Source of the DNA: Mesodorylaimus sp. YZB2_4
Lineage: Eukaryota > Nematoda > Enoplea > Dorylaimida > Dorylaimidae
DNA length: 64,000 nt
Assembly (NCBI GenBank): GCA_030248295.1
Contig: JASANH010001234.1
Coordinates: 558,001-622,000, forward strand
Direction of reading: 5' to 3'
A program made the translations under genes and the position numbers. Positions 14,506 through 63,661 of the stretch are shown piece after piece. Each line of letters starts with the position of its first letter. Position 1 is the first letter of the stretch. The notes under the pieces are model-generated. The model had not been told where the DNA came from and searched no databases. It saw nothing but the letters and a program-made list of their open reading frames with translations.

Positions 14506-14542
14506 AATATATGCGAGTCTTCTCGATCTTTCGGTTTAGGCA

Positions 14543-22479: not shown

Positions 22480-23060
22480 GAAGCACGGGGCCACACATGC
22501 AGTATGCACACATACATAGTACTGGTACTACACCACAGTGGGGATTCAGGTCTAGAAGAGGGCTTATTCGAGGGTGTGCTCAGCATAAACAAACGGGTGC
22601 TAAATTTTTTCAGAATGGTGAAAGTTCGACCAAATGCGAGTGGTGCATTGGAACGTGATTTCCTTCAACTGGCGAGAATCGGCAGAGCACCGAGAATCGC
22701 GATAGACTCTCACCACCCAAGTAAAGACGACATTGATGGCGCCATTCGGCAAAGGTTTCACGCGCGAAATTATCCTCGGTAGGAAACGTACTCGAAACAA
22801 TATCAACTACGTCAGTCCACTCGGCGAACGGTTAATTAAATTCAAAGGCAATACTGCGATAGGAATGGTGAAATGAACGAGCCAACTTTTGCTTTCAAAC
22901 TTGTCTACTTGGCAGCATTTATGAAATACAACGGATGGCCACGAAGCCAGGCGCGCACAGACGAATCAAGAAGATCGAAGCACCTTCCTACTCGTATGGC
23001 GCAGGGCATTGCCACACGCCCAAGCGAAAAGTGCCGCAGGGGCAAAGAAAACTGATATTT
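22480..23060. other. No gene assigned; one ambiguous coding-like patch
   Basis: Between 22600 and 22800 both strands are open. The minus strand reads NGAINVVFTWVVRVYRDSR and the plus strand reads a charged peptide. I cannot decide whether either is an exon. Confidence 0.3.
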
Positions 23061-23065
23061 TAAAG

Positions 23066-25640: not shown

Positions 25641-25646
25641 CTGCGG

Positions 25647-28923: not shown

Positions 28924-33500
<4,577 letters not shown>

Positions 33501-39108: not shown

Positions 39109-42100
39109 TCACTTTAAACAGACAGGACACGGTTTATGTTGCTCGATCCACGGACGCAGACACTGAAAAAAGAGGAGAATCAATAATGGTCACCCAACTC
39201 ATTCTTTACACAGTACCCAGGGACGCTGATGCTGGTACAGGATGCCCTCGCGTGCAGGTGCTCCTAGTGGAGACGCACAGATGAAAGCTGGTCACCTCAA
39301 GGCCTTGCTTATCATCGTGACTGCGGGCCGGCTGAGCAGAACGGGTTGGAAAAACTGGAGGGGGGGGGGGGGGGAATTAGGGCACACAAAAATTTGCAAA
39401 AACCCATTCTTTACACTGCTTCTTAACATGAGCTGGAAGTCCTATGGTAGCGCACACAACGGCTTCTGAAGACGGCCTTGTTCATTGTCAGTTCAGTCCC
39501 CAGCTGGGCGGCCTATTTTTTGATACTTGTAAGTCAACCCAGTGTTCCGAACTGGTCCACCCATAACCAAGCACGTTCCCATAAAGTCCTGGACAGCATC
39601 CGAAACTTACGCAATTCATACAGGAAGCGAAAAATGCTTTTCCGTGATTTCTCGGACAAAACTTTGGTTTTATCCCTGATTTTATTTACACAATTCCACG
39701 ACTACTAACTAAATTTCAACTGATTTTCATGATCAAAAACTGCGAATCAAGGGCGGGAAATCCAAATTTTGAAACGCCCAAATGCGACTATTCAGTTTTC
39801 CCATTTCCCAGGTTTCAAGACACTATTCAGATTCCCTGATTTCCCTGACTTGACGGAACCCTGCATAGCCGAGCCTTGCGATCGTGCTCCATGCGATTGG
39901 TGTGCGCACGGTTTAGAGGCAGCAATAAGTCAGTGGAGGCCTCACGCGCTCAGGGAGTCCCTGTGGTCCGCCAGGGCCGCAGTCTGGCACTGGAGCTAGG
40001 TCCTAGGATAGAGTTCCATTTTTCCGGCAGAGTGTCTTGGAATTGCATTAGACTCACGTCAACTATGTTCCAGCCAGGGGGCGGGGGGTCTCGACGTGGC
40101 CGAAGTCTAGGGGAGGATCTGGTCGATGGTCAATTTTTCCCAAAATGAGCAGGTATCAGCTCGGGGATTTCACGAGTCCTAAGCTATACCATTGTGATTT
40201 GATCGTCCTAATTTTAGGCTATGTCCTATCTGATTGTGAAATCGGCCTGTGGTCTTGGATCATCAGGCTTCATACAAAACATGGAAAAGACAAGAACACC
40301 TCCAGAAAAGGCAAGAAATCCAAAACTCTCAGTTTCCCCTGATTTTGGCTCAAAAAAACCACACTTTCCCAGGTTTTCCAGCCTTGTATGAACCTTGAAC
40401 TTAGTTGTGGTGGAGCGAATGAAGAATTTTTCAGTGGAAAGGCAAGAATGCGGTATGGAACTCCCATCCGCACCTCATCATCACCCTAGCAATCGACATA
40501 CCTTGTCGTGCGAGGCATGGCCGCACCGCATCTCTCGCCACAACTGATCTTTTTCTGTCATGTTCTCATTGCATATTTGGCAAATAGTATTATCGACCTA
40601 AAAACAAATATCATGATATCAATTGTCAATTTTTTCAATACTTAGATCTGCTAACTATGAAGTAACACCAGAGTCCCCGGCACCTCTTGCCAGCCCCCAG
40701 AAAGGGATCCTCAAATGGTAATCGAGAACTAGACAAAAAACAAAACCCTGCGCGGGAGTCGAACCCGTGCCCCGAGATTCCTACTGCACGCACTGACCAC
40801 CTTCACTATCGTCCGCCAAGCTAAAATGACTTACCTTATTCTTAGCTTGTTCATTTAACATCTGGCACACTCCAGAAATCAGGTCTTCCGATTTTACGCT
40901 ATCGAAACCACCTTTCGTTCGTTTACGTAATTCCAAAATGGCATCGATTATTTGTTTTCTAAATAAAAACCAACCCATCACGGCATCACAGACAGCAGAA
41001 ACCAAACAGGGATCAAACAGACAATCACTAAATCTGATCCAAACCAGGGTCCTCCTGAGCCTGACACTCAGGGGAGATTTTTTAAAAGAAACCAAAAACT
41101 TTATCCTCAGTGGGATTCGAACCCGTTCGAAACTTGCTTACTATAAAGTAGCACCACCCATCAAGATAAAGAGCCGCCGGGAAGTTTTTAGGGGGCTGGA
41201 GCTAGCCCTGGAAGAGAGAGCTAGATCCAGCAAGAGTAGGAGGTAAGAGCTAGCCCCTCAGAAGGTAATCATTTCACCCCTCTCCGACTTTTCAGCTCAA
41301 CATGTAGCACCCAGCCTAGTTAGTACCAGACAACCCAGACAATCCCTATCATCTTACCGTGTCACATTCCGCATTATTTTCGAAATGATCACGACCAACT
41401 GCTCGACATTAGTTTTCTTCTTGGCCTCATTTTTGATCGTCCCGTCCATATTACAATCCTCTTTTGGCGGAATAGGCGATACCAAACCCGGGCTACGCTT
41501 CTCCGTACTCCAGAACCCACCCTAAAACCGATCTCATTATCACGTATCGATCAGATCCCCTCCTCATCAAAATCACTAACCTCACGACCAGACCCTTATC
41601 CCAAACCCGAAGCGAATTCTTACCGTTTCTCCACCAATCGTCCTAAACACCATGGCACTATTCTCGAAACCCGGTGGTGCCGTCATGACTTGATTGACTA
41701 CGGGCGATGCATTCAAACAGCGTTTCACAGGCGACTTCACCGGCTGTTGCCCGACACTAGCACCGCTACGATCCGACCCAATTGACGAAATATTCGACTG
41801 AACCGATGGCGCACGAGACACCTAAATCAATTCAATACAGAAAATTATCCACCATCCACCGACCTAAAGGTTCAGATCGGAGCCAACGTTGTATTGTACC
41901 TATCCTCTTTTGGCGGAATAGGCGATAACAAACCCGGACTACGCTTCTCCGTACTCACGTTCATAACCGACACCCGCAGTCAGGAGGAGGAAAGGGATAT
42001 TTTGGCGGGAATTAAAAATTCAGATCCGACAGACCAACAGTCCTGGGTCTAAACCGATCTAGTCCAGTCCGATCGATGCTGGGACAGTAATTAGAAAACT

Positions 42101-45100
42101 GTTTCTTACCTCTGTCACCAAAACATTTTCGAAAACTGGCTCCTTTGGATCCTCCGGCAATTTGGGCGCATCAATCACGGGTGGTTGACTATTTGGAACA
42201 CCAGATTGAACTTGCCGAATCAAAACGTTGCACTGTTTCTAAAAAAAAGCACGAATTTTTCTGCAAATTTCATAATTAAAATTTCCAAATTACCTTAACA
42301 TCCTTCATATAGCTTTCAATCAACCCTAAATTCGTTTCCAATGCGGTTTTATATTCGATATAGACAGCCTTGCGTTCAGGTAAAGCTCTAAAGAAATTTT
42401 ATACTATCTTCCAGAAAATACAAAAAATTCTTACTTTTCAATGAGATCCGACACACGATTAATTTTTTCTCGCCTTTTCATAGAAGCCAATTCGTAATCA
42501 CGCAAAGCAATATCCCTTTGAAGAGATGCATAAGCCGCATCGGCCACAGCCGTCCGTTGCCTCAATTCCATAGCTTCGCTCTCACACGAGCATTCACTGG
42601 AAAAAAATTCAAAACCACTTACATAAAAACTCAGTCCATAAAATTTGAATAATTTTACTCACTTTGCTTTCTTTAACCGGGCTTCCAATTCTCGATTTTG
42701 TCTTCGAATTTGTAATTTACGCACCTCGGCTCTAAAAAATTGATTTAACGATTAAGGAATCAAAAAATTATCACAAATACTTACTCAGTAATAGCTTCCA
42801 TTGTGTCTTGCAATTGCGATCGCAAATGTTCTCCGAATTCACTAGCTTCTTCCAATTCATTTTTGCAAAGTTTCGCATCCTCAATTGTTTTTTGATAAAT
42901 CACTTTACTTTCTTTCTCTTCTTCCTTAAAATCGTTGTATTCGATTATAATGATCGATATACGAGTGATCGATATCGATATACGAGTGATCGATATCGAT
43001 ATACGAGTGATCGATATCGATATACGAGTGATCGATATCGATATACGAGTGATCGATATCGATATACGAGTGATCGATATCGATAATAAAGAGTAACCAA
43101 GTCTGGCAGGCGAAGGAGAGAATGCGGCCGACTGGAGCAAGGCGAGTCCTGCCTGTGCTTGAAACATCAACCTGACGTGCTGATGTTTCCCAGTCCCTTC
43201 CACTCGCCAGGCCTACCAAGGTTACTCAAGCAAATCAAAACCCACAATACCTCTATAGCATTCTCCAATTGCTCAATATTCGATTTTAGCTCAGCGATAG
43301 CGTCGTTCTGCGATTGTTTGATCGATTCCGTTTTTCGTTGAAATTCGACAAATTTTTCTTTTAATTCTTCCATCTCTTTTTTTAAAGTCTTAATCCCAAA
43401 AACATATGCCAACTGAAAATAGAAAAAACCACCACTTTTACCTTAGCTTTTTCCATTTCTTCATCTAATTTTCGTTTTTTATCTTCTTTTTTCACCAAAT
43501 CGCTAAAAAAATTTAGCGATTAACTCCACCACCCATGTGGAAAATGCATAAAGCATACCTATGTTGCGCATCACGCCTGCATGCGGCTTCCTCTTCATCC
43601 CACGGTAATTCATCATCTAAAAATATACAATTCTCTCAATTACTCTGGTGAGCCCCCCTCCCCTCCAGGCTTTAAATAGTCCCCCATGAGGAAGCCAAGG
43701 GAATCCTGACCACCCGCCCAGACTTGGCATGGCCCCATTAGTCACATTCTCGAAATGAAAAAATATGAGCGAACAGAAAATGTAGAAGAGTCAACTCTTT
43801 GATAGTCAAATATTTGAATTTGCCGCGCGCATTGATGCTCAGGTGCACGAAGCTTATGACAATCGGGAGCGAAGTTTGGCTTGCGCGAAATCTCTTTCAC
43901 TGCGCTTCACAGTTCCGACGCGTCGATATTTAATATTTGAAGTTATATAACCACAAAAACGATGGGGCATAAAAGCGAGCTCCAGTGCCAGCCATACTGC
44001 CAGACTTAAAACTTGTGTCCTTGCTAGAGAACGACACGCCCTGTTTGATGAATGGCTGCCCCCCCCCCCGATTTTCACTTACCTTCATATTCATCCGAAT
44101 CCGAATCAGCCTAAAACACAATTCAATCACCACAATCAGTGCCAATCCTCCCACTGGATCGCCCATACCTCCAACAAGTAAATCCTATCCTCGTCGGCAG
44201 TCAGCGCGTACGGTCCACCGAATTTCTCCAAAAATCCAACGAATCCATTCGAATCCCAAATAAGTGCATTCAATTTACTACTAGCATTACTCAAAATCGA
44301 GCACAATTCATCGTCGCTTATCAACAGGCTCTTCTCGGGTTGATCCCCAACCAATGCACGTAAGACTCTAAGATTAAAAAACCCACCTTTTCCACAATTT
44401 TTATTTAAAAAATATTAACTTACATCAAAAAGTCTTCGATCTCTGAATATTCCATTCCGGATGGAATTTCATTTTGAATATCATTTTCCAACGACATTTC
44501 CCCATCGCTAGCCACTTTATCCATTTCATCGGGCGAATTAGATCGACGTAAATTCAGAAACCTAGGCGTTTCCAAATTGACAATAATCGATTGCACTTTG
44601 TGTTTTTTCACTTTTTTCTTCTTCTCCTATAAAAAACCATCAATTTTTAAACTCTAGGATAATTTTTCAAAATTTTTACTTGTTTTTGTTCTTCAAAATC
44701 ATCAGCTCGACGTAATAGATAAACTGAAAAAACATTAAAACAGCTACCAAAATTCTTTGACTTGGAATCTGAAAAAAATTCCTCACCTTCTCGATCGAGT
44801 AAAATTTCTTCATTTGTCGCCACCGAAACTTCCTCTAAATTTGGAAAATTTTCATAAGATTGTGACGGAGTTCAAACAAGGCGGGGCCCAAAAAATGATT
44901 TTCCCAAATTTTTCCATGTCTTCCAGATAAAAATTTTGATTTTTTTCCTGTTTTTCACTCATTTTGGTGCTAAAATTTGAGAAAACTGGCCTGCTGCCTT
45001 TTCAATTTATATTTTGAATTTCCCGCCTTTTCTATTTTGGGTTTTCCACCTGTTGGACGGCCATCTGGCCAAAGTAAACCATCGTGGTCACCAGTACAAA

Positions 45101-48100
45101 TGATTTCTTACCCACAAGACTAAAGCATATCAGCAACACAACAAATCCAAACGGTGACCACGACGGTTTACTTTGGTCAGATTGCCGTCCAGCAGGTGGA
45201 AAATCCAAAATAGAAAAGGCGGGAAATTCAAAATTTGATTGCAAAATGCAGTTTTCACAGATTTTAGCTCCGAAATTCCAGTTTTTCTAGACTATTAGGA
45301 TACCCTGACTTTCCTGAATTCCCAGCCTTGTGTGAACCCTATTCAACAACACATACCGCGACCAGTTGCCTCGGTACTTCCATCTTCGGCATTCTGCGAC
45401 TTGGTTTCAGAGAAACAACGACTTCTGCCGCGTTCACGACCAACAGCACTCGCATTAAGACGACGCTGTTGACTATACATAGTCTCTTTGCCTTTTCCAA
45501 TTCGTCCACTTTTCGTAAATTCCCTAAAAACGTTTCATTAAAGAAAAAATCCATAATTTCTCCAAAAAGCACTTACTTCTTCGATTTTTCACCACCTTGA
45601 AATCCGAAATTCTTTGCTTCCATATTTTTATCGTATAATTTCCCACTGATAAGCACCCCGTCGCAACTGGGCGTTAAACAAGGCCTCGCCTGATCCTGTA
45701 CAAAAGAATATCTGATAGAGCAGGACACCAAATTTCGGCAGATGTTAAGGTCAATGATTAAATTTCAGGAATTTTTCAAGAATCGTTAGAATCTTGCATA
45801 CAAGTACAAGGAAAATGATTTTCCCTGAGTTTTCCAGAAAAATATAGATTGCCCTTGATCATTTCACGCTGTCCCAGCACTACAGAACAAATTTTAACTG
45901 ACTTATAGTATGATTAGCAGGTCCTCAAAGTCCCTGGAACACGCATTTGCCAAAGAGCGGACCCTGCAATAGTGGGAACAACGCCAAGATGAAGAAGCGG
46001 GTCTTCAAAAAAGGGGAGATTCAAAATTCGTGTCTTCAAAATGCACCTCACGCAGATTTCTTTGATTTTTGCTTCAAATTTCTCATTTTCTCAGGTTTTC
46101 TAGACACTTCTTCGAAATCTTCGACTATTCCAGCATTTACAATGCTGTATACCCTGAATTTTCCCGCGCCGCCCCCCGTTGCTCCACGGGAATTCCCAGC
46201 CCGTTTTGCCTATCCGGCCAGCAGCCGTATGATAAGCGAGCCGCGGTAGCTCATCATCACTTGGGTATGGCGTTGGTCCCGCACCCCTGACCAGGAGTCC
46301 GCTGTTCTATTTGAGATGAGGACGGCAGCTCAGTAACTCTGTCAGGCCTTGCATACCAGACCCTGGGAGACTCATCCGATGCTGTCAAGCGGCGGGCGCC
46401 AAGAACAAGGACCCTCCATTCTCGCCCAGTATCATCCTGGGTGAGGGTGCTGGCACATGAGGTGCTCCCAGTGGAGACACACACAGGGAAGCTGCAGTGA
46501 GAGCTGGTCATGCTGTAATGGGCATGGACTATGCTCTCCGGCCAATTGGTGCACTGGTTCAGGGAGCCGGTCCCTCTCTCCTGAAGTCAGGGCCGGCACG
46601 AGACCGAGATCGAGTGTCCAGTTTGGTTTGCAGGCATGGGTAGAGAGCTGGTCTTGAGTTCCTGGTCTGAACTTGCTCTGTGAGCCCTTGGGTCCCGAGT
46701 CGTCAGAACCACTTTTACGGCCGACACGTTCGGCTGCTCCCCGACCAGTGAGCCTACACGGCCCTTGTGGTGTGGCGAAAGCAAGCTATAGCACAAGGAG
46801 CCTGTGGACTGCGTGGGGTGGTTCCTGCGGCTTGAGCCATCCCCTGGTCAGCCCTAGTCTGTCCTAGGATTTCAATACCCTTGCTCATCATATCATGATT
46901 GCTAGCCGGCTAGAGGCAAAACGGGTTGGAAGTCCTGGGGGGGGGGTGGGGGGGGACTTGGGGCCCAGCCGACAAAAATTTTAGAAAAGCGAGCCCGTGA
47001 GGAGACAAGCTCTCACGGCAGCTTCCCTCTGTGTGTTTCCTCTAGGAGGCACCTCCCCACGAGACGGAAGGACCTTCTCGACTGGTCGAGGACCAGTTTC
47101 CTGACCCTCTACTCTTGACGGTACGAGAGAGCGGGCCATAGATGGGCTGACTTTGTTTCAAGCTGCGATAGAGCTACGGCTTGGTCAGGGTTACTGGCCC
47201 AAGCAATGCGGGACCAAAGCCCAAGCCAACTGAGCCACTGGTTTAGCAGTCACGATATGATAAGCGAGGCCATGGGGGGGGGGGGGGGGGGGGGGGGGTG
47301 GGATATCACGGCAGCTTCCCTCTGTGCAACTCCACCAGGAGCACCTTCACACGAAGGCATCCTGGACTGGACACCGACTTCGGGCGGACTGTGAACCCAA
47401 GTTTGAAGCGCGGAACTTCCTGTGTAAACCTGTCATAAGCTGCTCCTAGCGGGAGATTCAAATTTGACGTTGTTCGAGATCTGTGAAATGGTCTATCAGC
47501 AAGGCTGCAAGAAGACCAGCACACACAGCAGCGTCCCTCCGCGTGTCTCGACTAAGAGCACTTCCAAGCGAGAGCATCCTGAACTGGACGAAGGCGGGTG
47601 GGCTGTAAACCCTATCAGTGTCAAGACTCCTCGTTTGGCTCCTGTCTCTCCACTCACGGCACCGAGTCACCCGCAGCCTGGAGTGCAAGGTCAGCGCGGG
47701 TTTATGGTTCGCAAACTGAGCACTATCTCCAGCCACTCGCTCTCATGCAGCAAGGAGAAACGAATGCCGAACAGGTTTAGAAATCAATAGATAACGTACC
47801 TTTTCATTTCCAGCACGTCGAGTAAAAGCCTTGTAACAAGGCTTGTGAAAAGCGATCTCGCAATCGGCCGAACAACGAACCACATAATAGCCATCGAAAT
47901 TTGGATCCGTACGATAAATTTCGATCCTCGATTGAGTGCATTCACCACGACATCGAGCATCCGGCGGTGGTGGACAATGACAAATATGCAATACTTCATT
48001 CAATTGTTTCTAAAAAAAGAACCATTTTCCATTTTTTATGTCAAATCTAAATTATAATTTACATACTTTAAATTCTTCTGGCTCGAAAAATGGAAGACCC

Positions 48101-49795
48101 GGGGTTAAATTTTTCAATGGCGTAAACTGAAAGTCCGACTTTTCAACAATTTCTTTGGCTCTTTCGCATTCACGCAAACCTTCGTCGTAGCTTAAAAAAG
48201 TTCATAATATTTTGAATTTTTTAGAAAAAATATATTATATATAAGCTTACCGATTCATACGAATGTGTAATTTCGCTCGAATAAACGAACATAAATGCGA
48301 TAAACCTGGAATTTTATTTTCAATTTGTTCAAATAATCCGATTTCTTTTTCGGCTTTTTCTAAATACTAAAATTAAAAAAGCGTGTAAAAGCATTTTTCA
48401 AAATTTTTTTATTTATACTACTCACCACATGCGTTTTACTTTCAATGCAAGCAGCACCGTAGCATAAATTCAAGGCGCATGCACTTTGGTCATCCAACAA
48501 AGGCTTAAAGAAAAATTTCTAATTTTCGTTAGTAACTACGAAAATTAAAAATTAAAAAAATTTAAAATATCAAAATTAAAAATGATCGATTTACCGGATT
48601 TTTATCGTTAATTTCATTTAAGGCAGTTTCGTACAAATCTGCTGCTTTTCCGTATTCTTGACGTTTGTAGAAATCGGAAGCCATTGTCAGATCACGTTTC
48701 AAATTTGTTTGAGCTTGATTATCGACCGATTGCATTTCAGGAGGCGAAGGATTTACTGAAAAAAAGTTTTTACTAACGACGACAACGAGCACTCGTAATT
48801 TTACCTTCATTTGCCTTTTCAGCTTTATTCTTGGCTTTTTTCTTTGATTTGGAATTTTTATTCGAATTCGATCGTTTCAACTCGACTGGTGGCGGTGCTG
48901 GCTCTTTTTTCACGGGAGGACGATTCGGATCGAATTTTGGCGGTTTCGAAATTGAATCGGAAGCAGCGCTTTTTTCCGACACGGAACCGACATCGGATTT
49001 TGCCTGAGTCTTTTCGGCACTGGAAAAATTAAATAGTTTTTGACGCAGGTTTTTTTCGAAATCTGAAAAAGAAGGAACATAAACTAAAGAGAAAAACTCA
49101 GATTTATCAACCTTACAATCAGAAACAGAAGCCAGTGCGTTCGACGGCTCATCAACTGGTTCATCTTTGGTAGCACTGTCTTTGAGTTTTTTGGGATCCG
49201 ACGACAGCGAAGATCCGTCGTTCTCGGATGATCGACACAGCGCTTGTTGTAAGTTCCTGCCAAAATCTAAAACAGAGACTATAAAATCTTGGATTGTTCT
49301 AAACTTATCAAGTACTTATCGGACTTACCATCTCCGCCAGATTTTTTCGTATTTACTGACGATGGCTTGGAAGCTTCTGCTGAACTGTTGGAAGTGGCTA
49401 GATCGCTTTTGGTATCGAAACTTTGATTCTGAAGAGAAAAAATCTGTCCAGCCTGCCAGATGATATCTTTTGCTGGGCACTGAAGCAACAGTCTGCTTTT
49501 TAAGATTTATAAAATTTAAGAAAACGTCAGTTCTTCATTTAATAGGGTAAATTTTGAACATCGTTTTTTGCAACATGCCTGATTTTAAATGAGTCAAATG
49601 CCATTTCATCAGTGCGTTAGTCTATTCGTCTAAAAATCTTACCGACTTTGCAGACGGTGGTTCGCTCTTGGGTTTGCTTCGACACGTGTTGCCACTGATT
49701 TCATCTTCGTCCGATGTGTCCGATCCATCAGTGAGGCCAGGCAGGTCATCGAAATCGGATTCGTTTCCTTGAACATCTTGGTTTTGTTCAGACAT
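39109..49795 (-). CDS. TTC3/DZIP3-like TPR, coiled-coil and RING-H2 E3 ubiquitin ligase, copy A
   Basis: The ATG at 49795 opens MSEQNQDVQGNESDFDD. I read 29 exons whose lengths sum to exactly 1,240 codons including the stop. Order: an acidic Ser-rich N-terminus (exons 49643-49795, 49329-49479, 49117-49266 and 48805-49062, the last ending in a KKKAKNKAEKANEG basic run); TPR-like helices (48595-48755 with ASDFYKRQEYGKAADLYETA, 48426-48503, 48251-48366, 48067-48190); and a cysteine-rich domain (47800-48009: CHCPPPPDARC, DPNFDGYYVVRCSADCEIAFHKPCY; 45577-45695: PSCDGVLISGKLY) matching the TTC3 Zn-type domain. Next come acidic and helical parts (45357-45523 to 44083-44110), coiled coils (43559-43616 to 42294-42387), a Ser/Pro linker (42110-42238, 41624-41821), helical pre-RING segments (41358-41521, 40835-40958) and a RING-H2 split over 40502-40597 (CQICNENMTEKDQLW, CGHASHDK) and 39109-39162 (CLRPWIEQHKPCPVCLK, stop). 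Confidence 0.85.
39240..39390. repeat. Dispersed repeat with poly(G) centre (family C)
   Basis: It shares GGTGCTCCTAGTGGAGAC, AGCTGGTCACCTC, AACGGGTTGGAA and a long poly(G) run (39358-39374) with copies at 46440-47000 and, inverted, 57300-57600. It is intronic in copy A. Confidence 0.65.
40735..40815 (-). repeat. tRNA-like SINE head
   Basis: On the minus strand CACGGGTTCGACTCCCGC forms a T-arm, with an AGTAGGAATCTC anticodon-like part and a GGTGGTCAGTG A-box-like part before it. It is intronic in the TTC3-like gene. A second, poorer copy with GGGTTCGAATCCC lies at 41104-41165. Confidence 0.55.
42950..43085. repeat. 21-base tandem satellite in TTC3-like intron
   Basis: About six nearly perfect copies of the 21-mer ATACGAGTGATCGATATCGAT. 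It starts within about 30 bases of the splice acceptor of exon 42785-42924, so it occupies the usual branch-point/polypyrimidine region. It is followed directly by the palindromic-core repeat fragment 43090-43240. Confidence 0.9.
43090..43240 (-). repeat. Dispersed repeat with palindromic core, minus orientation
   Basis: Inverse member of the 24361-24575 family: GGTTACTC..CCAAG ends and the core GAAACATCAACCTGACGTGCTGATGTTTC, which can fold on itself. It is intronic. Confidence 0.65.
45000..45250. repeat. Long inverted repeat (hairpin) in TTC3-like intron
   Basis: The left arm (about 45010-45098) and right arm (about 45155-45245) are reverse complements with few mismatches. For example, CTATTTTGGGTTTTCCACCTG pairs with CAGGTGGAAAATCCAAAATAG. 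The loop is about 55-60 bases. It is non-coding; it could form an RNA hairpin or be a small foldback transposon. Confidence 0.85.
45700..47795. other. Large repeat-filled intron of TTC3-like gene
   Basis: This 2.1 kb intron separates the two halves of the cysteine-rich domain. It contains several copies of family C (46440-46560, 46900-47110, 47240-47400 and 47420-47620) and the longest poly(G) run of the window (about 26 G, 47274-47299). I see no exon in it. Confidence 0.7.
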
Positions 49796-50158
49796 AATGT
49801 CATTTAAAAAAGGAAGTTGAAACTTTTCTCAAATCTTTTTCAATTTTTCATGAGTAAACACTTTTGCAAAAAGCCAAGTCGACATGCAAAATCAAAAAGT
49901 GTTCAGCGCGCATTTTGCGCAATCTTGTCCAGATTCATTCGTGCGCACAAAAGAAACAGGTACAGCAACTGCCTATAACGATTTTCAAAAATTTTTTGCA
50001 GCTTGCTGTGCGTTTTGGCGCGAACCAGTGTACAGTAACCCGCACGAAGGCGCTGAATGCGGGTGAAGTCATTTTTGTAAAATCAACAAAAAAAGTTTTT
50101 CTGTCACTTCTGTTTGCGTTTTTCTCTCGCGTTTTTTCGAAAAAACGACGACGACAGA
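49796..50158. promoter_or_regulatory. Divergent promoter region between TTC3-like gene and NAA50
   Basis: The two start codons face away from each other only 363 bases apart, so this stretch must serve both promoters and both 5' UTRs. It is AT-rich with GCGCG-containing patches (for example near 49908). I recognise no defined factor site. Confidence 0.6.
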
Positions 50159-51459
50159 ATGAAATTTAAGTGAGTTCGTGAGCTAGTGTGTTTGTGAAAG
50201 ATTTTGCTTGGCCTGTAGGAAACGTCGGGAGGGACAGTGTATACAAAACTTTGTTGTTGTCGTCCCTTACCGTGATGTTAGTACCCTTCATGCTGTACCT
50301 TCCTGTTTTGTCATATGATGAGGTAGTAATGCCAAAACTGGGCTTCGGCAAGAATGTCGGATGAGATCTGATAGAAAATCCATGAACAGTCTAGATTTTT
50401 CTGGTTGTCTCGTGTGCTGTGAGATACGTTTAGCCTGTCGTCAAAGGGGTGCTCAAGTGCGGTTAACCAAAATTTTTTTGGGGAGCTAGAAAGGCAGACC
50501 TACCGTGTATTACAAAAAATTTGGACTCGAAGTTTTTACTCGTTTTAGATCGCGCATGGAATTAGGTGACGTTACCCACCATAATATCAAGCAATTAAAA
50601 CGATTAAATCAAGTCATATTTCCGGTCAATTACAACGAACGCTTTTATAAAGACGTTTTAGAAGCGGGAGAATTAGCGAAACTAGGTTTGTCAATCTTTG
50701 CACATTTCCCAAAATAACATACCCAACTGTGTTTTTTTTAGTTTACTTCAGCGATATTGTGGTTGGCGCTGTTTGCTGCCGTATCGAAACATCGCCCGAA
50801 GGAAATGCACCCATTGCGGGGGCTAAACGGAGGCTTTACATCATGACTTTGGGATGCTTGCCAGCGTATCGTCGACTCGGATTGGGTAAGTACAGTCGCA
50901 ACCGGGCACTCAAACTGGGTCTAAACTGACGAGGCTGAGCTGATGTGCACAATGGCAGCTGGTGTGCACGACTCACAGTCAGAAGCAGTAATCAAGTGCC
51001 GGGGTTCGAACCAGGGACCTTCCAATCAGCAAGATGACGCTGTAAAACTAAGCCACTCCCTGCCCTTGTTTAACTTTTCTACTGTAATAATCTGTATTCT
51101 AGGCACGCTAATGTTAGAGCACGTTTTCAAATTGTGCGATCGCGATGGCAATATCGACAGCATTTACTTGTAAGTTTGTTTTTTTCATTTTTTAAAGGCT
51201 CTACTATGCTTGTTTCAGGCATGTTCAAGTAAATAACGAAGACGCGTTGGCCTTTTACAAAAAATTTGGATTCGAAGTAGTCGAATTAACCAAGAATTAC
51301 TACAAACGCATTGAGCCAGCCGACGCTTATTTGGTGGAAAAACCCATGAAAGGTCAAACAATTACTCCACTCCCACCCGGCCAATTGACTGGCCACGAAG
51401 GCAAGGAGAACGAAAACGCTCAATCGGCTGCTGTGAATGGAGAGAAGACTCAGAACTAA
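50159..51459 (+). CDS. NAA50: N-alpha-acetyltransferase 50 (NAA50)
   Basis: GNAT-fold enzyme that acetylates N-terminal Met-starting peptides as part of the NatE complex; it also supports sister-chromatid cohesion. Five exons, 50159-50169, 50549-50685, 50742-50885, 51103-51169 and 51219-51459, total exactly 200 codons with the stop (199 residues; human about 169). The tiny 11-base first exon supplies MKFK and joins to SRMELGDVTHHNIKQLKRLN. Conserved blocks: QVIFPVNYNERFYKDVLE, GAVCCRIE, the acetyl-CoA loop YRRLGLGTLML, DSIYLHVQVNNEDALAFYKKF and KNYYKRIEPADAYL. The C-terminus is a longer, low-complexity tail. Intron 3 (50886-51102) holds a tRNA-like B-box (GGTTCGAACC). Confidence 0.95.
50985..51060 (-). 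repeat. tRNA-like SINE head in NAA50 intron
   Basis: On the minus strand GGTCCCTGGTTCGAACC marks a T-arm/B-box and GGGAGTGGCTTAGTTTTACAG an A-box region. The anticodon arm is degenerate. Confidence 0.55.
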
Positions 51460-51558
51460 TCGTCCAATCTTGTCTCGGCATATACAGTAATAGCGAACTT
51501 TTTCCATACAGCAATTGCCCAATACTAAAAACGATTTGTTTAGAAAAAGTTTAAACTT

Positions 51559-53708: not shown

Positions 53709-53709
53709 C

Positions 53710-56100
53710 TTTTTTGCGCAAAATTCCGAAAAACCAATAAATTCGAAATTTTTGGGTTTTCACACATGAGGCATTACCGTAATTTTTTGCGCACACTCGC
53801 ACAAGGACTAGACTACTTATGACAAGAGCCACCAAATTTAAAAACTAAATTTGGGCCGAATAGGAATTTTTTAGAATTTTAGTTTTTCGTGAGTAAACAT
53901 TGATGAAAAATTGGGTCGAATGACCGAATTCTGGCTTCGGTTTTCGATCATGGGTTGCCTCAAATATAGAGCACGCTCATTGACGCACACCTACTAAGAG
54001 CAATTGGCTCATTATCTAACCGGTAATTACCGTATTTATTATGTTCTATTTGACTGATTTCTTTCTTCTAATCGTCAAAGACAGCTACAGTAGATGATAC
54101 AATCTCAGTGACATTTAAATTTCGCGCTGCACCTGAGCATCACATCCTATACCTAAAAGCGGTAAATTCAAATTTGCTAGTGTTTCTAACCATGCATAAT
54201 TTTCGTCATCATTTCATCACACATAAACGCACGTCGTACGTCTGTTTTAGTAATAGTTGCGCGCGTGTTACGTTAGATTTTCGTCTTTTCAACAAAGTTA
54301 GCATAATTTGATGTACGTACGTTGAGTGTAACTGGTTTTTTAAGTCAGTCATATAGTGCCTAGTCATGGTTGCTTGTCAGCCATTAGCACGCCTAAGATA
54401 GGCGACACGCCTCGTCTTTGGAGGATTAGTCATAGACTCGTTTGTCATGGGGGCGAGTTTTGTCGAGTAGCAGCTGGCAGCCCGATGAACTCATCGGTTC
54501 GTTGGAACTTTGCGCGTGTGCCCGCCAACCACGTCAATAAAGGGAGGCGACTGAGTCAGCCCTTGGACGGGTATATAAGGAGGGAGACGGGCGCGGACAA
54601 GCGCAGTGTCGACGAGTGCGAGTGCTGGTGCGGCTGGCAGTGAATGGAGGACGGCGGTGGGAATTTCGTCATGCCATTGGAGTGGAGTGGGAGAGGTAAG
54701 GCAGTGCTAGGCTCCCCTATCGTGGCTTTTTGTACTGCGACCATGGTGCTGGGTTGATGATGAAATGCCCAGCATGTGGCCAGTGCAAGCATGCACGATT
54801 GGTCGCTCGTCCTGTGTCCATGCGTGCCAGTGGTGGTGATGGGATCGCTTACAATTTTTGTACTTCATCAGGTGGTAGACGATGCTGAGCACGTGAATGA
54901 GTCTAGCACCTTATGGAGTATAATAAGTGTAAGTGAACGAGTCGACGAGACCACCGTGACAGCTATCGATTGACGATGATACGCGCACTGCGTGTGCTAA
55001 CATCACGTCCTATCCCCTAGCAACACGCACGTACACTCGGCCAAACATTGCGCAAGACATGTGACTCACCTGGCGACCAGACACGTGACCACACTCGTGT
55101 CATGCCAGTCTCAATGGACACGTGGTGACGTCAATACGGGGGCGATCCCACCTTCAACGGGGTGTTTTATGAGCAAATTGAAAATGGATGGGCGGACGTA
55201 AGTACAACCAGCTTGGACACATGCCAGAACCATATACGAGTGCGACGTGGGCAGGTCCTGGTGCGAATGATGAACATGCAAGTATGACAGTCGCCCTGCT
55301 CAGACCACTTCACGATGCGCAACAGATGGACAGCACGTCATGTCAGCCAGTAGGGTGCTACCTGTGACTGACCCCTGTCCACTTCACTCCCTGTGCGCCT
55401 GATAGCACACACTCACTGCGTGCCCACACACGACTTACAGCATACCTCCACGAGGCATCCCTCGCCAGACTATCCGCTGACCACTGCCCACTCTCCTCCA
55501 CTTCCTCCGCGCCTGACACCAGCTTCTTCCCTGCACACACTATGTCCCCACCAGACCAGACTCTAAGCTGACCACTGTCCACTCCATTCCCTCCACAGCA
55601 CACTTTCACTGTGACACCAAAGTGCCTTCACGTGGTTGGCTGACCATGCATACCACACACTCTGTCCCCACCTGACCAGACTCCACTGACCACTGTCCAC
55701 CCCCCACTTCCGCTCACACACACACTTCCAACAGCACATCTGGCGAGCCATCTGCGACAAACAGTCCTGACTCACCAGCAGAACATTCACTGCAAAAAAC
55801 TCAAAGCATGCTGAGCGGAAGCGTCTGAGTCAAGATGCCAGACCCCGTCGAATCATTTTAGCAAAGATGAAGCTGTAAGAAAGTGTGTCACTGCTGTTTT
55901 CTGGTCTCTATGGTTTCCAGGCCAGTGTGATTCACTTGACACTCGAGTCCCCCGCGGTGATTATTCACAAGCGGATGAATCTACGAAAAAGGCAAACAAA
56001 GCCTATGACGCATACGGATGGTCTATTCGAGACACAGTCAATACGACTGGCCATAAAAGGTAAAAAGGGAACATAAGTAAAAATATATCACAGACAATGC
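53710..56100. other. Intergenic, no gene recognised
   Basis: About 2.4 kb between the BUD13 start and the DGCR6 stop. A minisatellite-like stretch occupies 55365-55765 (below). Several open frames at 54350-54980 lack motifs. The proximal part must hold the BUD13 promoter. Confidence 0.45.
55365..55765. repeat. Degenerate minisatellite (TGACCACTGTCCACT units)
   Basis: Diverged units of about 90-110 bases contain CTGACCACTGTCCACT (near 55368, 55475, 55570 and 55688), ACCAGACTC and CACACACACTTCC. It is low-complexity, purine/pyrimidine-biased and non-coding. Confidence 0.6.
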
Positions 56101-56103
56101 ACC

Positions 56104-59037
56104 TCACGTCCCATTCGACACTCGCTTCTCCGACAGACCAATAATAAAGATCAATAATTGCATTTGCACTTGGATTTCTTGCGGGTTCGAGGTCACGAAA
56201 AATCCAGGCACACCCGCTTTCTCCAACGTGCTCTGAAACGAAACACAAACTAGTCGATGGCCAGACCATCCTGTTAGCACTGATCAGACGTGTTGCGGCC
56301 ATTCCCAGTCCAGTGTGTGGCTAGCTACACAAGCAACCCCGGGCCCAGGTCCGATCCCCATCCATGTTTCACCTACTGCGTGGCAAAGCTACCTTCCCCG
56401 CTAAGGATGCCTGTAAAGCCTTCTTATGGTTCAAGTAAACTTGGTCTTCACAAGAAAGTGATAACCCATCGATTGATTCTCTAATTTACAAAATTGGTGC
56501 TGCTAGTAGCTACTCCTGCTCAATTTATTTTCCTATACAAGAGCAATGTTTTATAAACTAAAGAACTTTTAACTCACCCACTTCCTATCCTATACTTTCT
56601 TCTGCTTTTGCTGACTTTTTGAAATGGAGTTCCCTGTTTTCCAAAAAGTTTTATATCCACGTCATGTCACACTTTATGCACAGCCAAGCACCACTGTTGT
56701 ACACTACCAGTTTGACCAAGAAGAACTTCCACAACAACTGGCCTATAGAAAAAGCAGGACAGCTCTCAGCAATGCTGCACTTTCCTGGTCTTCTAGTCCT
56801 GTCTTTTTTTAACCCTCTAATGGCTGACTCCTTTCTCCAAGCACTAACGTCGAAGGCACAACAAGCAACACAAGCTCCTACCCTGTTCAGGTTCATCCAC
56901 TCATATGGAAATCGATGCCCCCGGTTTTTCCAGGTTTCTCAAAAAAGTGTCAAGAACCTTTGCGTAAACCCCGGCTGGAATGAAAACCCATCCTGCGCTT
57001 ACAATGTGCTCACCTGCTGTTGTACAACCAGCTGGTCCAACTCGGCTATGATCCTCCGATCCGCCTTGTCCAAGTTACTCGCAGCGGCTTCATCGTGTTC
57101 CTGCAAGTAGAGCAGATTAAGCCAGCTATTTCGCTGTGAGGCTTGACTTTTTGGAAAGGTTTTTGGAGGTGCATGATTTAGGAGGTGTGAGATGTGTGTG
57201 AACGGAAGTGGTGGGGCGGACACTGGTCATTGTAGTCTGGTCTGGTGGGGACAGAGTGCTCGCATCAGAATAAAAAAGATCCATACAGCATGCACTGTAT
57301 GAATATTTTTCTAAAATTTTTTGGGATGGGTCCCTTGCCGCCTTAATTCCCCGTTGGACTTCCAACTCGTTTTGCCTGCAGTATAGCTGGCCAGCAGTCA
57401 TGTTACGATAAGCGAGGTGACCGGCTCTCGCGGCAGCTTTCTTGTGTGTGTCTCCACTAGGAGCACCTCCACACGAGGGCATGTTGCGCCAGCACCAAGG
57501 GCCAGAAGGGAGATCCTTGCCTTGATGTGTTCGAGGACCAGTTTCCTGATTTTCTGCTCGTTCGGTACTTGGGGGGGGGGGGGGGAATTCGCCTAGAGCC
57601 AGGTGTGCAAGGGCAGCGACGGGCTTACTAAACTGCCTTTCTCAGCCGGAACTGAATACGGCCTCCCTGTCAGGGTTGCTGGCACAACCAATGCGGTACC
57701 AACGACTTCGCCGACTAAGCCATCGCGGCTCCGCTGACATTGATCGTGACTGCCTACCACTGCAATGCTCAGGCTATTTCTAGCCACGTCCTTCCGGCCG
57801 TGCCTGACAGTCCATTTGAGCACACCTGACAGCCTCAAGACACGCCCTGCAAGTGACTTCGTTGAGATTACGATCCCTGATCCCTCTCCCAGTCAACAGG
57901 CCGGAGCTCTCTGCATAACCATCCCTCGTCACCTGACTGCCAACAGTAACTCATCCCCGCCATCCCTTTATTGGGGCAACGTCCACACATCGAAGGACCA
58001 TTAACCAGGAATCTCAAAAGACTAGGCTTCTCGCTGGAGGTTGAAACATCAACCTAACAGGTTTGAGCCACTGCGGCTCTACTGCATGGATTTTCCAGCA
58101 TGCCTGTTTTGGATCACATTCTTCCGCAGCCTTACCCTGGTGCACGGATACAATAGTGGATCCTACCAATAAGCAAATACCCGACTGAATGACAGCTCAC
58201 CTTCAACTCTCGTTCATTCTCCCGTTGTATCAAGGGCAGTCGATGCGGGGCGGCCTGGTTGCTTTGCAACTGATCCCGATGTCTTCGCTGTTTCTCCACT
58301 CGCTCGTTCAACTGCTGCTGCACTAGCTTGCTCCGAGATTCGCTCAGCGTCTTTTCCGTCATTTGCTGTATTTCCTGAAATGGAGACGGGCCTGACATCC
58401 AGCTGATCCAAGCTTAAGGAAACTTCAATCTGAAACCTTAGTTTACACTTGTGTGCAAGAATGTGTAAAGACGCGCCTGCTTGCATCAGAATACAGAGCC
58501 ATTCTCCGCCTTGAATCTGGAAAGGATAACTTAGCAATCAGCAGTGGAAACACGCACAAAAACTTATCCTCGAGTGGGATTCGAACCCACGCCTCTGGGA
58601 TTCCAGCCAGAGTGCAAGCCACACACACATTAGTCACCGCGACATCTTTGGTCGACAGGTATGAGCGGACCATGCACTGATGGGACAGCGCTACGTCGTT
58701 TTCTAAACCGGATTCCCAGAAGCGGGGGTTCGAACCACACTTAAGGCAAAGCTTTTGTTAATTTTCTGATTTTTTAATTCCCTCAATAAGCCTCTTTCCA
58801 GACCGTTTACAGCCTGACCTGCCGAACCAAATTCTCCCGCCACCCTTGTCCTACCTGCAATCCAGCCACAATATCAAATACAGTCTCATCCAACAAAGCG
58901 TTAGCCAAATTCGACAAGACTTCGAGCGGTAATCGCTGTTGAATCTGAACGGGCAGCGTCGAAGCCATGGCCTGCAATTCTTGCAAGTACTCGTAATGCC
59001 GACGCTGCTGCCTCACAGACCCATTTTCCTGATCCAT
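56104..59037 (-). CDS. DGCR6: DGCR6-like protein
   Basis: DGCR6 is a small conserved coiled-coil protein related to Drosophila gonadal; its biochemical role is not well defined. Four exons, 58855-59037, 58201-58374, 57014-57100 and 56104-56232, total exactly 191 codons with the stop (190 residues; human 220). Exon 1: MDQENGSVRQQRRHYEYLQE, then LPLEVLSNLANALLDETVFD. Exon 2: EIQQMTEKTLSESRSKLVQQ, then APHRLPLIQRENERELK. Exon 3: DKADRRIIAELDQLVVQQQ. Exon 4: STLEKAGVPGFFVTSNPQEI. Each matches the human protein in order. The introns carry a tRNA-like SINE and a family C repeat. Its start lies 235 bases downstream of the ULK3 stop on the same strand. Confidence 0.95.
57300..57600. repeat. Dispersed repeat with poly(G), family C, inverted
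   Basis: It lies in the third intron of the four from the 3' side of DGCR6. Shared words with 39240-39390 and 46900-47400: CCAACTCGTTTTGCCTGCA (as inverse of the AACGGGTTGGAA type), GATAAGCGAGGTGACC, CTCGCGGCAGCTTTC, CACTAGGAGCACCTCCACACGAGG, and a poly(G) run at 57571-57585 ending in GAATTC. Confidence 0.65.
58560..58650 (-). repeat. tRNA-Ser-like SINE head or tRNA pseudogene
   Basis: On the minus strand GTCGCGGTGACTAATG resembles a serine-tRNA acceptor/D region, CTCTGG-CTGGAATC-CCAGAG forms an anticodon-like stem-loop, and GTGGGTTCGAATCCCAC is a perfect T-arm. The D-arm/A-box is degraded and the acceptor stem does not close well, so a functional tRNA is unlikely. Confidence 0.5.
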
Positions 59038-59271
59038 GTCCTAAAATGGAAGTCAAGCACACTGACCATAGCCCAAATGACAAAACCAGTATTCGGATCC
59101 AAGCCGAGCCTTGGCAAGAACCCAATCCACCCTGTAAGCTGTACTCTTAGACAGGCCATAGGCAGACACACAAGGAAGCCCGTAGCGGACACTAGCACTA
59201 GAGTAGCATCAGAGGCCACAGCCATTTCCAAGACCTACAACCGAATCACATTGAAAAGGAATGAGCACAGT

Positions 59272-60872
59272 TTACTGCAATTTACACATTCGATCTTGCG
59301 CCAGCTTCTCCGTATTCTCTTCCAAACTGACCATGGCAGCTTCGCGTTCTTCAATTTTAGACAAATTTAATTTCCTAATTTCCACATATTCTTTCAATTC
59401 TTTCGCTCGATCAAGCCATCGATCGATAAATCGTCGCAGCATATCTCGACGTTGATTCTTGGCTTCAGTACTCAAAAGTTTCAAAGTAGTCTCAATAGCT
59501 AGAGTATACTTTTCCAAAGCTTCTTCATATTTCTCATCGCTAATGTTCAAAACCTCCTCGGCGCCAGTGACCACAGTCAAAGCGGCAGTCACTTCTGGAA
59601 CATCGGACCAAGCCTCTTTCAAAGCCATGACATCCTGCGATTGATCCAAGCCCACGTCCAACATCGATGCAGTGGCTTGGACGAAACTGGCCGGACCATG
59701 GTCCATGGTTTCACTGGCGACCACGCTTCGTCGTTTGGGCATCAACGATCGTTTCAATGTCTCGGCTCGTCGAAGATATTGACGTACTTTGGCTCGTATG
59801 ATCTCCTTAGCCTCAGGATCCTCTTCGTATTGAATAGCTGGCATAAAATAGGCCAAAGCTCGGCAATAAAGACGAATAGCTTCGGCAATACGACCAGCTT
59901 CGTCGGCACGAATAGCGTCTTTGATCAAAATTGTAGCTTTGTTCAAACATTCTTCCGAAGGAGCGTATTCCAAATCGATAAAAGAATGTGCGAAGAATTC
60001 ATCGAAACTTAGTCGACGATACGGATCTCGTTGAAGTAAGCCGATCAATAAATTCTTACATTCGTCAGAGATCGATGGACGATCGGGAATATCGATTGGA
60101 GAATCGGATTTGATTTGTTCCATAAGTTCTTCCATTGACGAGCAAGCGAATGGTGCTTTGCCGAATATGCACTCGTATAAAATCACACCGATCGACCACA
60201 AATCGACACCGGCATCGTACGTTCTCCGAGTGAACATTTCGGGCGCCATGTACCTGCGAAAAAAAGTGTAAAGGGACATAAAACCCGAATAAGAGTGACT
60301 TACAAAGGTGAACCACGTAACGAACTGGCATCGTCCGTTGAACGCATGTACATAGCGAAACCGAAATCGGCCAATTTCAATACGGGACGACGATTTAGAC
60401 CGATCGAAGATGTGTAGGAGACGAGAATATTTTGCGGTTTCAAATCCATATGACTAATGTTATGAGACCGGAGATATTTCATGGCGGTAGCCAATTGTTG
60501 AAGGAATTTTCTGGCCACTGGTTCTGGTAAACATCGTTGACGGCGAATAAAAGCCGATAAATCACCACCGCTACAATATTCTGTAATTAAATATATATAA
60601 TTTTTATCCCATTGAAAATCTTTCATTTGAACAATATGCGGATGTCGAAGAGTTTTCAAAAGACGGATTTCTCGAATTAAATTATCTTGCGCCGCTTGTG
60701 TTGAACAAATACGATTTTTGAAAATGCACTTGATTGCTACTACTTCGCGAGTCCCGCTCGAAGAGCAGCCGTTCGAAATTGCTTTGAAAACGACGGCGTA
60801 CGAACCACGACCGATACGTTCATTGAGGGTATAGCCCTGAACAATAGGAGTCGGAATCGGTTGTTCGGCCAT
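59272..60872 (-). CDS. ULK3: Serine/threonine kinase ULK3
   Basis: ULK3 regulates Hedgehog/GLI signalling, autophagy and the ESCRT-III abscission checkpoint. Two exons, 60304-60872 and 59272-60253, total exactly 517 codons with the stop (516 residues; human about 472). The kinase domain is at ~12-275: the glycine loop [19 protein letters not shown] with the ATP lysine, catalytic loop [15 protein letters not shown] in [10 protein letters not shown], and [20 protein letters not shown]. As in human ULK3 the catalytic HRD arginine is replaced (HMD). The C-terminal part has two helical MIT-type segments ([40 protein letters not shown]), which bind ESCRT-III tails. The open frames are clean and codon use is ordinary for the region. 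Confidence 0.96.
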
Positions 60873-61505
60873 TGAAAAATCTAAAAATAAACATTTGGAG
60901 ATCACTAGCAATCGATCAGTTCAGGGAGGGGACCTAGGTCGCCCTGTGTAGCCTGTCTAAATTTTGGAAGATCAATGTATGATCGTTTTTATAAATCTAT
61001 CGATCGATCGATCACCCTCAGTTAGTGCGATCGTAGATTATCTCATCGCCGGCTTGAAAAAATGCGCGAAAACTGAATCAGAAAAGAGTGATCAGAAAAA
61101 AAGGCGTGATAATAATACGTAAAGTCTAAAAATCATACGCATGCGCAAAAAACGGAATCAGAAAAAAGTGAGAGTACAACTTACTATCTCAAGTTACAAT
61201 CATTTCAAGTCGTCGTCCGAATCATGAAATTTCACGCCTGCTCACAAAAAATAACATAACTTTTGTTTTCAAATTTGAACTTTAAAAACTTTTTCGGGCC
61301 AGCTGGCTGGTTTTAGCGTCGGTACAATTAAGATTCAGATAGAGGCTAGCGGTTGAAAATCCGAAGCCCTATTTTACCGTGTCGCACTAGCCTACTGTAA
61401 CGCGGTTTGATGAAAAAGAATTTTCTAGAATTATCTCGAAAATAGATAAAATTTTGTTGATTTTTAACAGAAAAAGTTACTTTTCGATGATATTCGCAAT
61501 TCAAG
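60873..61505. promoter_or_regulatory. Divergent promoter region between ULK3 and EDRF1
   Basis: A 633-base gap between two diverging start codons. It is AT-rich and contains a (ATCG)n run (60995-61012, TCGATCGATCGATC). Two GAATCAGAAAA.AGTG segments at 61074 and 61153 are a short direct repeat. No known core promoter element is certain. Confidence 0.55.
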
Positions 61506-63661
61506 ATGACTGATATTAAATCGACAGCTGTTGTCAAGTACAGTGCCACCAAAGAACCCGAACCGTATTGCGAATTAGCGTTGAATACGAATTTGAATTC
61601 TCCACCTGAGAAATGGCTGCAAGGGCGATTCGGCGAAAAAGAACCTTTCGTTCCTGGCAAATCATCGACTATGGCCGGCAAAGAATTAAACAGGTTTGAG
61701 AATTTTCAAATTAAAAAAATGAGAGAAAAACCGGTATTTTTCGTTTAGTTTCATGATGGCAAATAGTTTCATCGAATATGTTGGAAGCGTGGATGCGATC
61801 ACGGATGCTGAGGTAAGGCTGCGTACGGGTTCTCGAGTTCGGCGAGATCTGATGGTGAAAATCTGGGCTCTAATGGCTAGAATCGCCAAAAATCGTGCGG
61901 GAATTTAGATTCTCCACCTGAGAAATGGCTGCAAGGGCGATTCTGCGAAAAAGAACCTTTTTCACGACTTGTTTTTTTTTCAGAACGTCAAGAAACTATT
62001 GAAAATGCCGTACAGTAAATCGAGTATCAGTATGATGGTACATCGAGTCGGCAAGACGCTACTGATCGATCAATTCGATATTTACAAGCACGTTCTGATG
62101 GCTCAGCAAGTAAGACCATCGACAAAATCTCCGCGCAGGATTTATGAGTTTTTTTTTCTATTTAGCAAGAATGGCATTGGTTGAGGGAATTTATTATTGA
62201 TACTTTGATGGAAAACGGCTCGTCGCAGGTACGTTTGATTTTTATTTTGTCCTACAAATTGACACTTACAGTATTTTTTAGGCTCTTATTCCCGCGCATG
62301 GCAAAGGCTGTGGACGGAAAGAAATTCAAGAAAAACTGATGCTGTCGAAATTTTTATACTACAGGTTTGTGGATGTATGATTCGTTGATGGGATAGAATT
62401 GGTTGTTTTTTTTCAGTTTGGGTAGCGGCGAGTTGGCGAGTGTGGACAGCGATGCCGATGTAGGGGTACCGCCGAAATCTGAAAGTTCATTGGTTCCTGA
62501 TCCGTTAAGAAATGAAGTAAGATAAATCTTTTTTTGAATTTGAATATGATTGAAATGTGTTTTTTAGGAAAACCCTAGTCTGCCTCAACAATCGAATTTG
62601 TACGAGCGGAATGTATTGTGGAGATTGGAAGATATTCGAATGTTGGTGGGCAATAATATGCCCATTTTCGGTGGCGGAACTCATCCGTGTGTCAGTTTAC
62701 GACTAAGGTATGAAAAATATTTGTGTTGTGAATTGACGCATTTTTGGAACAAATCGAAATCAGACCACAAAAATTGACGCCTTCTGGTCATTTTTGGAAC
62801 CTCAAAGAATTGAGCGGGAAAATCGATTTTTTCTCACCTAAAAAATTGAAAACCGCTTAAACTTAAAGCATGAAAAAATAAGGGCAACAGTACTCTTTTA
62901 AAATCACAAAAAGTCTTAGTCTAAAACAGTCAACTTCATTTTTTCTGAAATCATCAGAAAATTTGGACGAAATGACAACTTTTCGACAAAATTTATGATA
63001 ATTCCTGAATTGTGTAGGATTCGACTTTGAGATTTTGACTCGCATGGATGGAATGGCAGTATATTTTGATTTCAGAGACATGAAGAAACCGATCAACGTG
63101 TTGACTGGTATCGATTATTGGTTGGATCAGTTAATGTGCAACGTGCCCGAAGTGGTCATGTGTTATCATTTGAATGGTATCGTTCAGGTATGTCTCCTGT
63201 TTTCATGGGTTTTAATGGGTCTGTGTCAAAAACTTGACCATGTTGGTGGTGGGTCCTGTGGCCGAAAAAGGACACTTTTCACAGGGTTCATGCAAAGCTA
63301 GGGAAAACCAAGGGCGCATTTTGGGATTTCAAATTTTCAAATCACCCGCCCTTTTCTGTGCATCTGCTCGTCATAATGAAAATTAAAGAACCCCTATCGG
63401 GCCTCTGGGTTGACTAGAAAAGGCACATTTTCCAGTCGATTGGGTCGAGTCTCATGCAGGAATGCAAGGAACTTATGCATATTTTCCTGGAAAAACGAGC
63501 TTTTTTGTTTTAGAAATACGAAGTTATAAAAACGGAAGATTTACCAAATTTGCCGGATTGTAAATTTAATCCAGAAATTGTGCGAGACGTGGCGCAAAAT
63601 ATTCTTTCATTTCTGAAAAGTAATGCCACGAAAGAAGGACATACGTATTGGTTATTTAAAG
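61506..63661 (+). CDS. EDRF1: EDRF1 homolog, N-terminal part (runs off the window)
   Basis: EDRF1 (erythroid differentiation-related factor 1 in mammals) is a large TPR-containing protein of unclear molecular function. Nine exons are present: 61506-61693, 61749-61812, 61984-62109, 62166-62228, 62282-62364, 62417-62516, 62568-62707, 63076-63187 and 63514-63661. Matches in order: STAVVKYSATKEP, NVKKLLKMPYSKSSISMMVH, EWHWLREF, LMLSKFLYYS, NVLWRLEDIRMLVGNNMPIF, KPINVLTGIDYWLDQLMCNV, GIVQKYEVIKTEDLPNL, AQNILSFLKSNATKEGHTYW. The final exon ends LFK with a GTATG donor. The C-terminal TPR half lies beyond 64000. Intron 2 carries a copy of part of exon 1. Confidence 0.96.
61905..61965 (+). repeat. Intronic echo of EDRF1 exon 1
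   Basis: About 55 bases match 61597-61655 of exon 1 with very few differences: both contain TCTCCACCTGAGAAATGGCT and GAAAAAGAACCTTT. The copy is in the same orientation in intron 2, with a substitution changing FGEKEPF to FCEKEPF. Confidence 0.9.

Follow-up and report, generated by a model that had tools for sequence, protein, structure and literature searches.

Short local copies of exon sequence in dorylaimid nematode genes, probably scars of ordinary DNA repair

Why do several unrelated genes in one short stretch of a nematode genome carry, within their own non-coding DNA, brief copies of their own coding sequence? The stretch is a 64,000-nucleotide section of Mesodorylaimus sp. YZB2_4 (assembly GCA_030248295.1, 145,146,385 bases in 1067 contigs; contig JASANH010001234.1, here C31:558001-622000), which we call the window and number from its first letter. 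The initial annotation had pointed to same-strand copies of coding sequence in introns of three unrelated genes (EDRF1, a TTC3-like gene and NAA50), had added repeated splice donor regions in a V-ATPase B gene as a fourth case, and had suggested a genome-wide process. We confirm the observation and find that its recurrence outside the window is real and that the class of event is already known. With a probability of roughly 70%, the three copies in the window are isolated short local duplications, left as scars by ordinary local DNA repair.

The longest pair belongs to EDRF1 (Pfam EDRF1_N, E = 2.3e-30 on the joined exons). A source segment at 61589-61648 on the forward strand, inside the exon 61471-61693, recurs on the same strand at 61901-61960, in a 171-nt intron (61813-61983) that is the second of the introns following the source exon. 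Source and copy agree at 57 of 60 nt, start 312 bp apart and score 51 (match +1, mismatch -2), and the 60-mer was found at two places in the 145-Mb genome, both in this gene. One EDRF1 stretch was also compared with phages, which led nowhere.

The TTC3-like pair lies on the reverse strand. Its source (41456-41510, inside the exon 41358-41521) recurs upstream at 41902-41956, in an intron whose boundaries were placed by eye (41822-42109); 53 of 55 nt are identical over a spacing of 446 bp (score 49), and a 76-mer was found at two places genome-wide, both in the gene. The gene takes its name from a TTC3_DZIP3 domain (E = 1.3e-17) in an open reading frame (ORF) at 47743-48009, about 6 kb from the pair and on the same strand; the exons of the pair and this ORF appear to belong to one gene; other joined pieces of it (556 aa), like a 56-aa piece, matched no Pfam family. 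An intron of this gene also holds a perfect 21-nt tandem repeat (42953-43085, 6.3 copies, 100% identity), and the gene region contains a foldback element (45011-45234) with 82-nt arms that are 94% complementary and 60 nt apart, at a single place in the 344 kb examined.

The NAA50 pair (gene identity at E = 1e-69) is the shortest. Its source at 51255-51278, in the last exon (51219-51459), is matched on the same, forward strand at 50510-50533 (23 of 24 nt, 745 bp apart, score 21), and the acceptor (50548/50549) of the first coding exon to be recognised lies 15 nt downstream of this copy. Taken alone this short match is marginal (BLAST E = 0.24 in the window), and it is settled by the genome-wide result: with up to two further mismatches allowed, the 24-mer was found at two places in 145 Mb, both in the gene, and a reversed-pattern control gave 0. 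The copy may lie in intron 1 or in the 5' untranslated region (UTR), since no upstream exon was located. In viral contigs, NAA50 gave 16 pattern matches and no relative.

Chance similarity was rejected by comparison with 150 shuffles that preserved dinucleotides in 200-bp blocks. Counting local pairs (same strand, within 1 kb), the shuffles gave 1.94 per 64 kb at score 13, 0.65 at 14, 0.21 at 15, 0.12 at 16, and none at 17 or above, the range in which all three gene pairs lie. The real window has 37 local same-strand pairs scoring at least 16, which apart from the three gene pairs are mostly microsatellite, the V-ATPase array, coding repeats and repeat elements. A dispersed repeat was rejected for each window fragment on its two genomic places, and a larger, decayed tandem duplication on the flanks, whose scores fell within 300 shuffles for each pair with the exception of the EDRF1 left flank (2 of 300 shuffles, but aligned at a different spacing); at equal spacing the flanks of the EDRF1 copy and source are not homologous. 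Because similarity does not continue into the flanks, the window pairs are read as patches and not as remnants of larger duplications.

The fourth case proved to be of another kind. The exons concerned match ATP-synt_ab (E = 6.6e-53) in a gene whose subunit we take to be B, and the intron (29915-30402, reverse strand) contains a tandem array, each unit of which carries the tail of the exon together with the splice donor. The true exon-intron boundary (30398-30415; 13 nt of exon plus GTAAG) has an exact copy in the array at 30264-30281 and a third at 30116-30133 with two mismatches, all on the reverse strand, so that the boundary 18-mer occurs three times at up to three mismatches (two of them exact, the true boundary included) against 0.02 expected. 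Because intron bases are copied too, the array looks like ordinary tandem amplification of boundary DNA. The repeated donor regions are thus present, but being a tandem array they were rejected as members of the same class and should not be counted with the other three.

Does the pattern recur elsewhere? For a sample chosen without looking, we took 28 stretches, each 10 kb long, at fixed positions in the 28 longest contigs (280 kb). A coding model trained on long ORFs rated 28% of sample and window combined (344 kb) as coding, with some false calls, and multi-copy and low-complexity pairs were excluded from the counts of isolated pairs. Three assignments were corrected: the pair at L030 2605-2638 was reclassed as coding rather than exon-to-noncoding, both arms encoding the same Gly/Ser-rich repeat; a called exon that coincided with the TTC3 copy was changed to noncoding; and the TPH-like exon described below, which the exon caller had shortened, was lengthened manually as far as its splice sites. 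Isolated exon-to-noncoding pairs scoring at least 20 within 1.5 kb were then found in 2 of the 28 sample stretches. In L017, 35 nt of an exon resembling tryptophan hydroxylase (TPH2 1.8e-8, Biopterin_H 8.2e-6) at 5943-5977 recur at 94% identity, 367 bp away, in the next intron (5576-5610). In L027, 43 nt of a hAT transposase ORF (6547-6589) recur at 91% identity, 571 bp away, in DNA downstream of the ORF (5976-6018). Each of these fragments was found at two genomic places, and the genome-wide search, which scored the best candidates only and skipped very common words, found no third place in the 145 Mb for any of the five fragments. Weaker pairs with a coding arm (score 15-19) were same-strand in L029, L020 and L016 and opposite in L014.

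From the sample's 2 pairs in 280 kb (a rate with a 95% interval of 0.9-26 per Mb), a genome would be expected to hold between hundreds and a few thousand copies. With 3 pairs in 64 kb the window is richer (P of about 0.011 if the sample rate is treated as exact), as expected because it was picked for looking unusual. The initial interpretation is supported in part: recurrence outside the window is borne out, but the copies look like the product of a known class of local repair and not of a new process. Near exon-noncoding matches are also enriched over far ones: against four within 1.5 kb (five with TPH), seven matches of score 20 or more were found farther away, in about 120 times the search space, after removal of 13 multi-copy or low-complexity matches; for two of these seven, both arms share a stretch, 3.3 and 4.7 kb apart.

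How might such patches form? In the reading we prefer, a break or stalled fork would arise in a gene's non-coding DNA, and a patch of 24-60 nt would be copied from DNA a few hundred bases off, with either synthesis-dependent strand annealing or template switching as the route, perhaps within polymerase-theta-type end joining. The donor would be an exon by happenstance, and the copy would be retained because introns tolerate insertions and would stay recognisable because its donor is under coding constraint. Among the mechanisms that had been put forward, template switching or repair synthesis fits best.

The TPH-like copy bears on this, forming the loop between the arms of a perfect 16-nt inverted repeat (L017 5556-5632; 0 of 500 shuffles). 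The repeat fits the trace expected of a polymerase that, having copied the exon, turned back to copy its own flank. An inverted repeat bounding a copy could also suggest that exon fragments were captured by transposons, as in Pack-type elements. However, in 145 Mb the 16-mer is perfect at these two arms only, with eight one-mismatch sites elsewhere, which argues against a transposon, as does the want of terminal repeats common to a repeat family. No inverted repeat lies within 30 nt of the other four copies and each fragment was found only at its two places, and we consider such capture exceedingly improbable.

Local duplications of this kind have known counterparts. The short paired duplications, or doublets, attributed to Thomas and colleagues in 2004 are said to be 25-100 bp long, local and mostly on the same strand, with C. 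elegans included, and are reportedly defined as exact matches, whereas the nematode pairs here are 91-96% identical and that of NAA50 has 24 nt. Tandem exon duplication likewise acts within a gene and on the same strand, but here all five copies are partial exons and none is a whole exon with its splice sites. By eye, none of the five copies shows the marks of a retrocopy, namely an A tail or the crossing of an exon-exon junction; runs of five T that close the EDRF1 and NAA50 copies precede splice acceptors.

A closer parallel is offered by human repair-mediated duplications, attributed to synthesis-dependent strand annealing in the excerpts considered here of Pace et al. (2009; PMC2671141). 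In those excerpts, 824 of the 1,136 donors lie no more than 5 kb away, a few donors are exons or parts of exons, inserts are chimeric in 20 cases, and sizes start at 50 bp with a median of 147 bp. The likeness lies in the single donor, mostly within 5 kb, and our five start-to-start distances (312, 446, 745, 367 and 571 bp) all fall within 5 kb and beyond the 50-bp minimum spacing. Members of the human set, as excerpted, further had to interrupt a transposable element and to measure 50 bp or more, and their empty sites were examined, whereas here two of five copies reach 50 nt (EDRF1 with 60 and TTC3 with 55, against 24 for NAA50, 35 for TPH and 43 for hAT).

Polymerase theta offers a second parallel. 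In C. elegans germ cells it mends breaks in an error-prone way, leaving inserts that are identical to nearby sequence (PMC4490562), and patchwork inserts increase without HELQ (PMC8654963). As far as the parts of these two reports drawn on here go, the likeness is a nematode germline, copying from near the break and patchworks at times; theta inserts, however, come with observed deletions, whereas the window copies would have been templated 312-745 bp away. The inverted flank copy that break-flank templating by theta would leave accompanies one of our five copies (TPH). The assembly encodes a POLQ-like gene, with HTH_61 (8.9e-4), POLQ_helical and DNA_pol_A along C13:145379-152837. A second POLQ_helical locus, on C117 and without a DNA_pol_A match, may be HELQ; with this candidate in hand, the idea that loss of HELQ raised the number of patchwork inserts was not supported.

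Are sense exons preferred as donors? All five exon-derived copies are in the sense orientation (one-sided 0.031). At a score of at least 20 and within 1.5 kb, exon-noncoding matches are 4 same-strand and 0 opposite, or 5 and 0 with TPH included, against 6 and 11 for noncoding pairs (Fisher 0.018, V-ATPase array removed), a weak control in that several of its opposite pairs resemble hairpins or foldback elements. Lowering the cut-off weakens the contrast within 1.5 kb (5/1 vs 11/11 at score 18, p = 0.16; 6/2 vs 18/16 at score 16, p = 0.23), and in the sample alone it is 2/0 vs 5/9 (p = 0.18). Up to 5 kb, with the added pairs taken uninspected, it is 7/0 vs 7/14 (p = 0.003), and 4/0 vs 6/10 in the sample alone (p = 0.043). 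Among direct isolated pairs of at least 90% identity, excluding those coding in both arms, 5 of 8 are exon-derived against a coding share of 28% (P = 0.046); allowing for slower decay of coding donors, with an assumed share of 44%, gives P = 0.24, and the sample alone gives 2 of 5 (P = 0.44). An exon or sense preference is thus hinted at, as a lead rather than a result. Placement in a gene's own intron would be nearly automatic for copies within 1 kb of an exon, because most noncoding DNA that close to an exon is intron of the same gene.

A sense preference is what RNA-templated patch repair would produce, in which a gene's own transcript serves as the template for mending a break and leaves sense exon copies. 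Such repair has been reported in human cells, in the part of that study considered here (PMC12065846). The orientation of the five copies and the strand contrast up to 5 kb favour it, as does the finding that all five lie wholly within exons, which has a probability of 0.39 under mRNA templating and 0.19 under DNA templating (exon ends partly by eye). That likelihood ratio is only about 2, however, and does not distinguish the two; exon-exon junctions are crossed by none of the five copies, intron sequence is part of the V-ATPase units, selection against antisense exon copies could also give a sense bias, and the contrast weakens as the cut-off is lowered. We regard RNA templating as unlikely: it is neither needed nor excluded, and on exon containment it is favoured by no more than about 2:1.

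Several points weigh against local repair as the explanation. The donor distances of 312-745 bp exceed those of typical theta inserts, and the window copies are probably longer than such inserts. Within 30 nt, flank repeats in excess of the shuffles, whether inverted or direct, are missing from four of the five copies. Noncoding-both-sides pairs make up 3 of the 8 direct isolated pairs, below the prediction from the coding share, a shortfall that is not significant without the window. That a repair step inserted the copies, and that copying ran from exon to non-coding DNA, is inferred. Finally, compared with the human set as excerpted (PMC2671141), copies of 24-60 nt sit at or below its low end, and all five exon copies are sense while its whole-exon example, ACSBG2, is antisense.

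Could the copies instead have been kept because they are used? Partial exon duplications might be retained as alternative, poison or alternative-3'-splice exons. In EDRF1, TTTGAAT of the source corresponds to TTTAGAT in the copy; this gives a TTTAG that is a possible candidate for a new 3' splice site, with a frame that stays open into the next exon (ORF 61909-62184). An acceptor there would add 25 codons (61909-61983) in another frame; 25 open codons are common by chance, however, and no pyrimidine tract precedes the site. The TTC3 copy was rated coding by the model (41878-41973), but simple splice choices, followed by eye, break the frame, and it was rejected as an alternative exon. The copies also lack the source's own splice sites, and on these predicted features we think retention as exons distinctly unlikely.

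The pairs are known from the assembly alone, and unmerged haplotypes or gap filling could in principle have produced them. Yet the copies differ from their sources by 4-9%, the flanks of the window pairs are unrelated, there is no N in the window or in the first 20 sample stretches, and the cases fall on three contigs (C31, C15 and C25). An assembly artefact is accordingly very unlikely.

A possible bias of donors towards sense exons is the point of interest that the local repair reading leaves. It would be unlikely, to about the same degree as RNA templating itself, that breaks in transcribed genes are patched with sense pieces of their own exons, perhaps templated by the transcript, with exons as preferred donors and hundreds to a few thousand such echoes in the genome. 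Should a sense-exon donor bias hold genome-wide, introns would be a fossil record of intragenic break repair, one that could be used to look for RNA-templated repair in the germline of an animal. Should it fail, what is left is local templated duplication as described for vertebrates in the excerpts of PMC2671141, still easily seen in this nematode and still able to create new splice-like sites.

The window holds further repeats away from the gene pairs. A coding stretch, coiled-coil by eye, at 3637-4012 has an inverted second copy at 25643-26060 that is 73% identical and about 22 kb away. An inverted 1-kb duplication joins 13509-14510 and 23055-24084 at 88.6% identity and is perhaps a mobile element. 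Short repeats lie at 1913-1944, 41093-41124 and 58557-58588, at least the last two of which contain GGATTCGAACCC; those bearing this motif we take to resemble remnants of tRNA-derived short interspersed elements. In the sample, a nematode source is indicated by a protein of stretch L020, which carries a nematode cuticle-collagen N-terminal domain (E = 4.3e-19).

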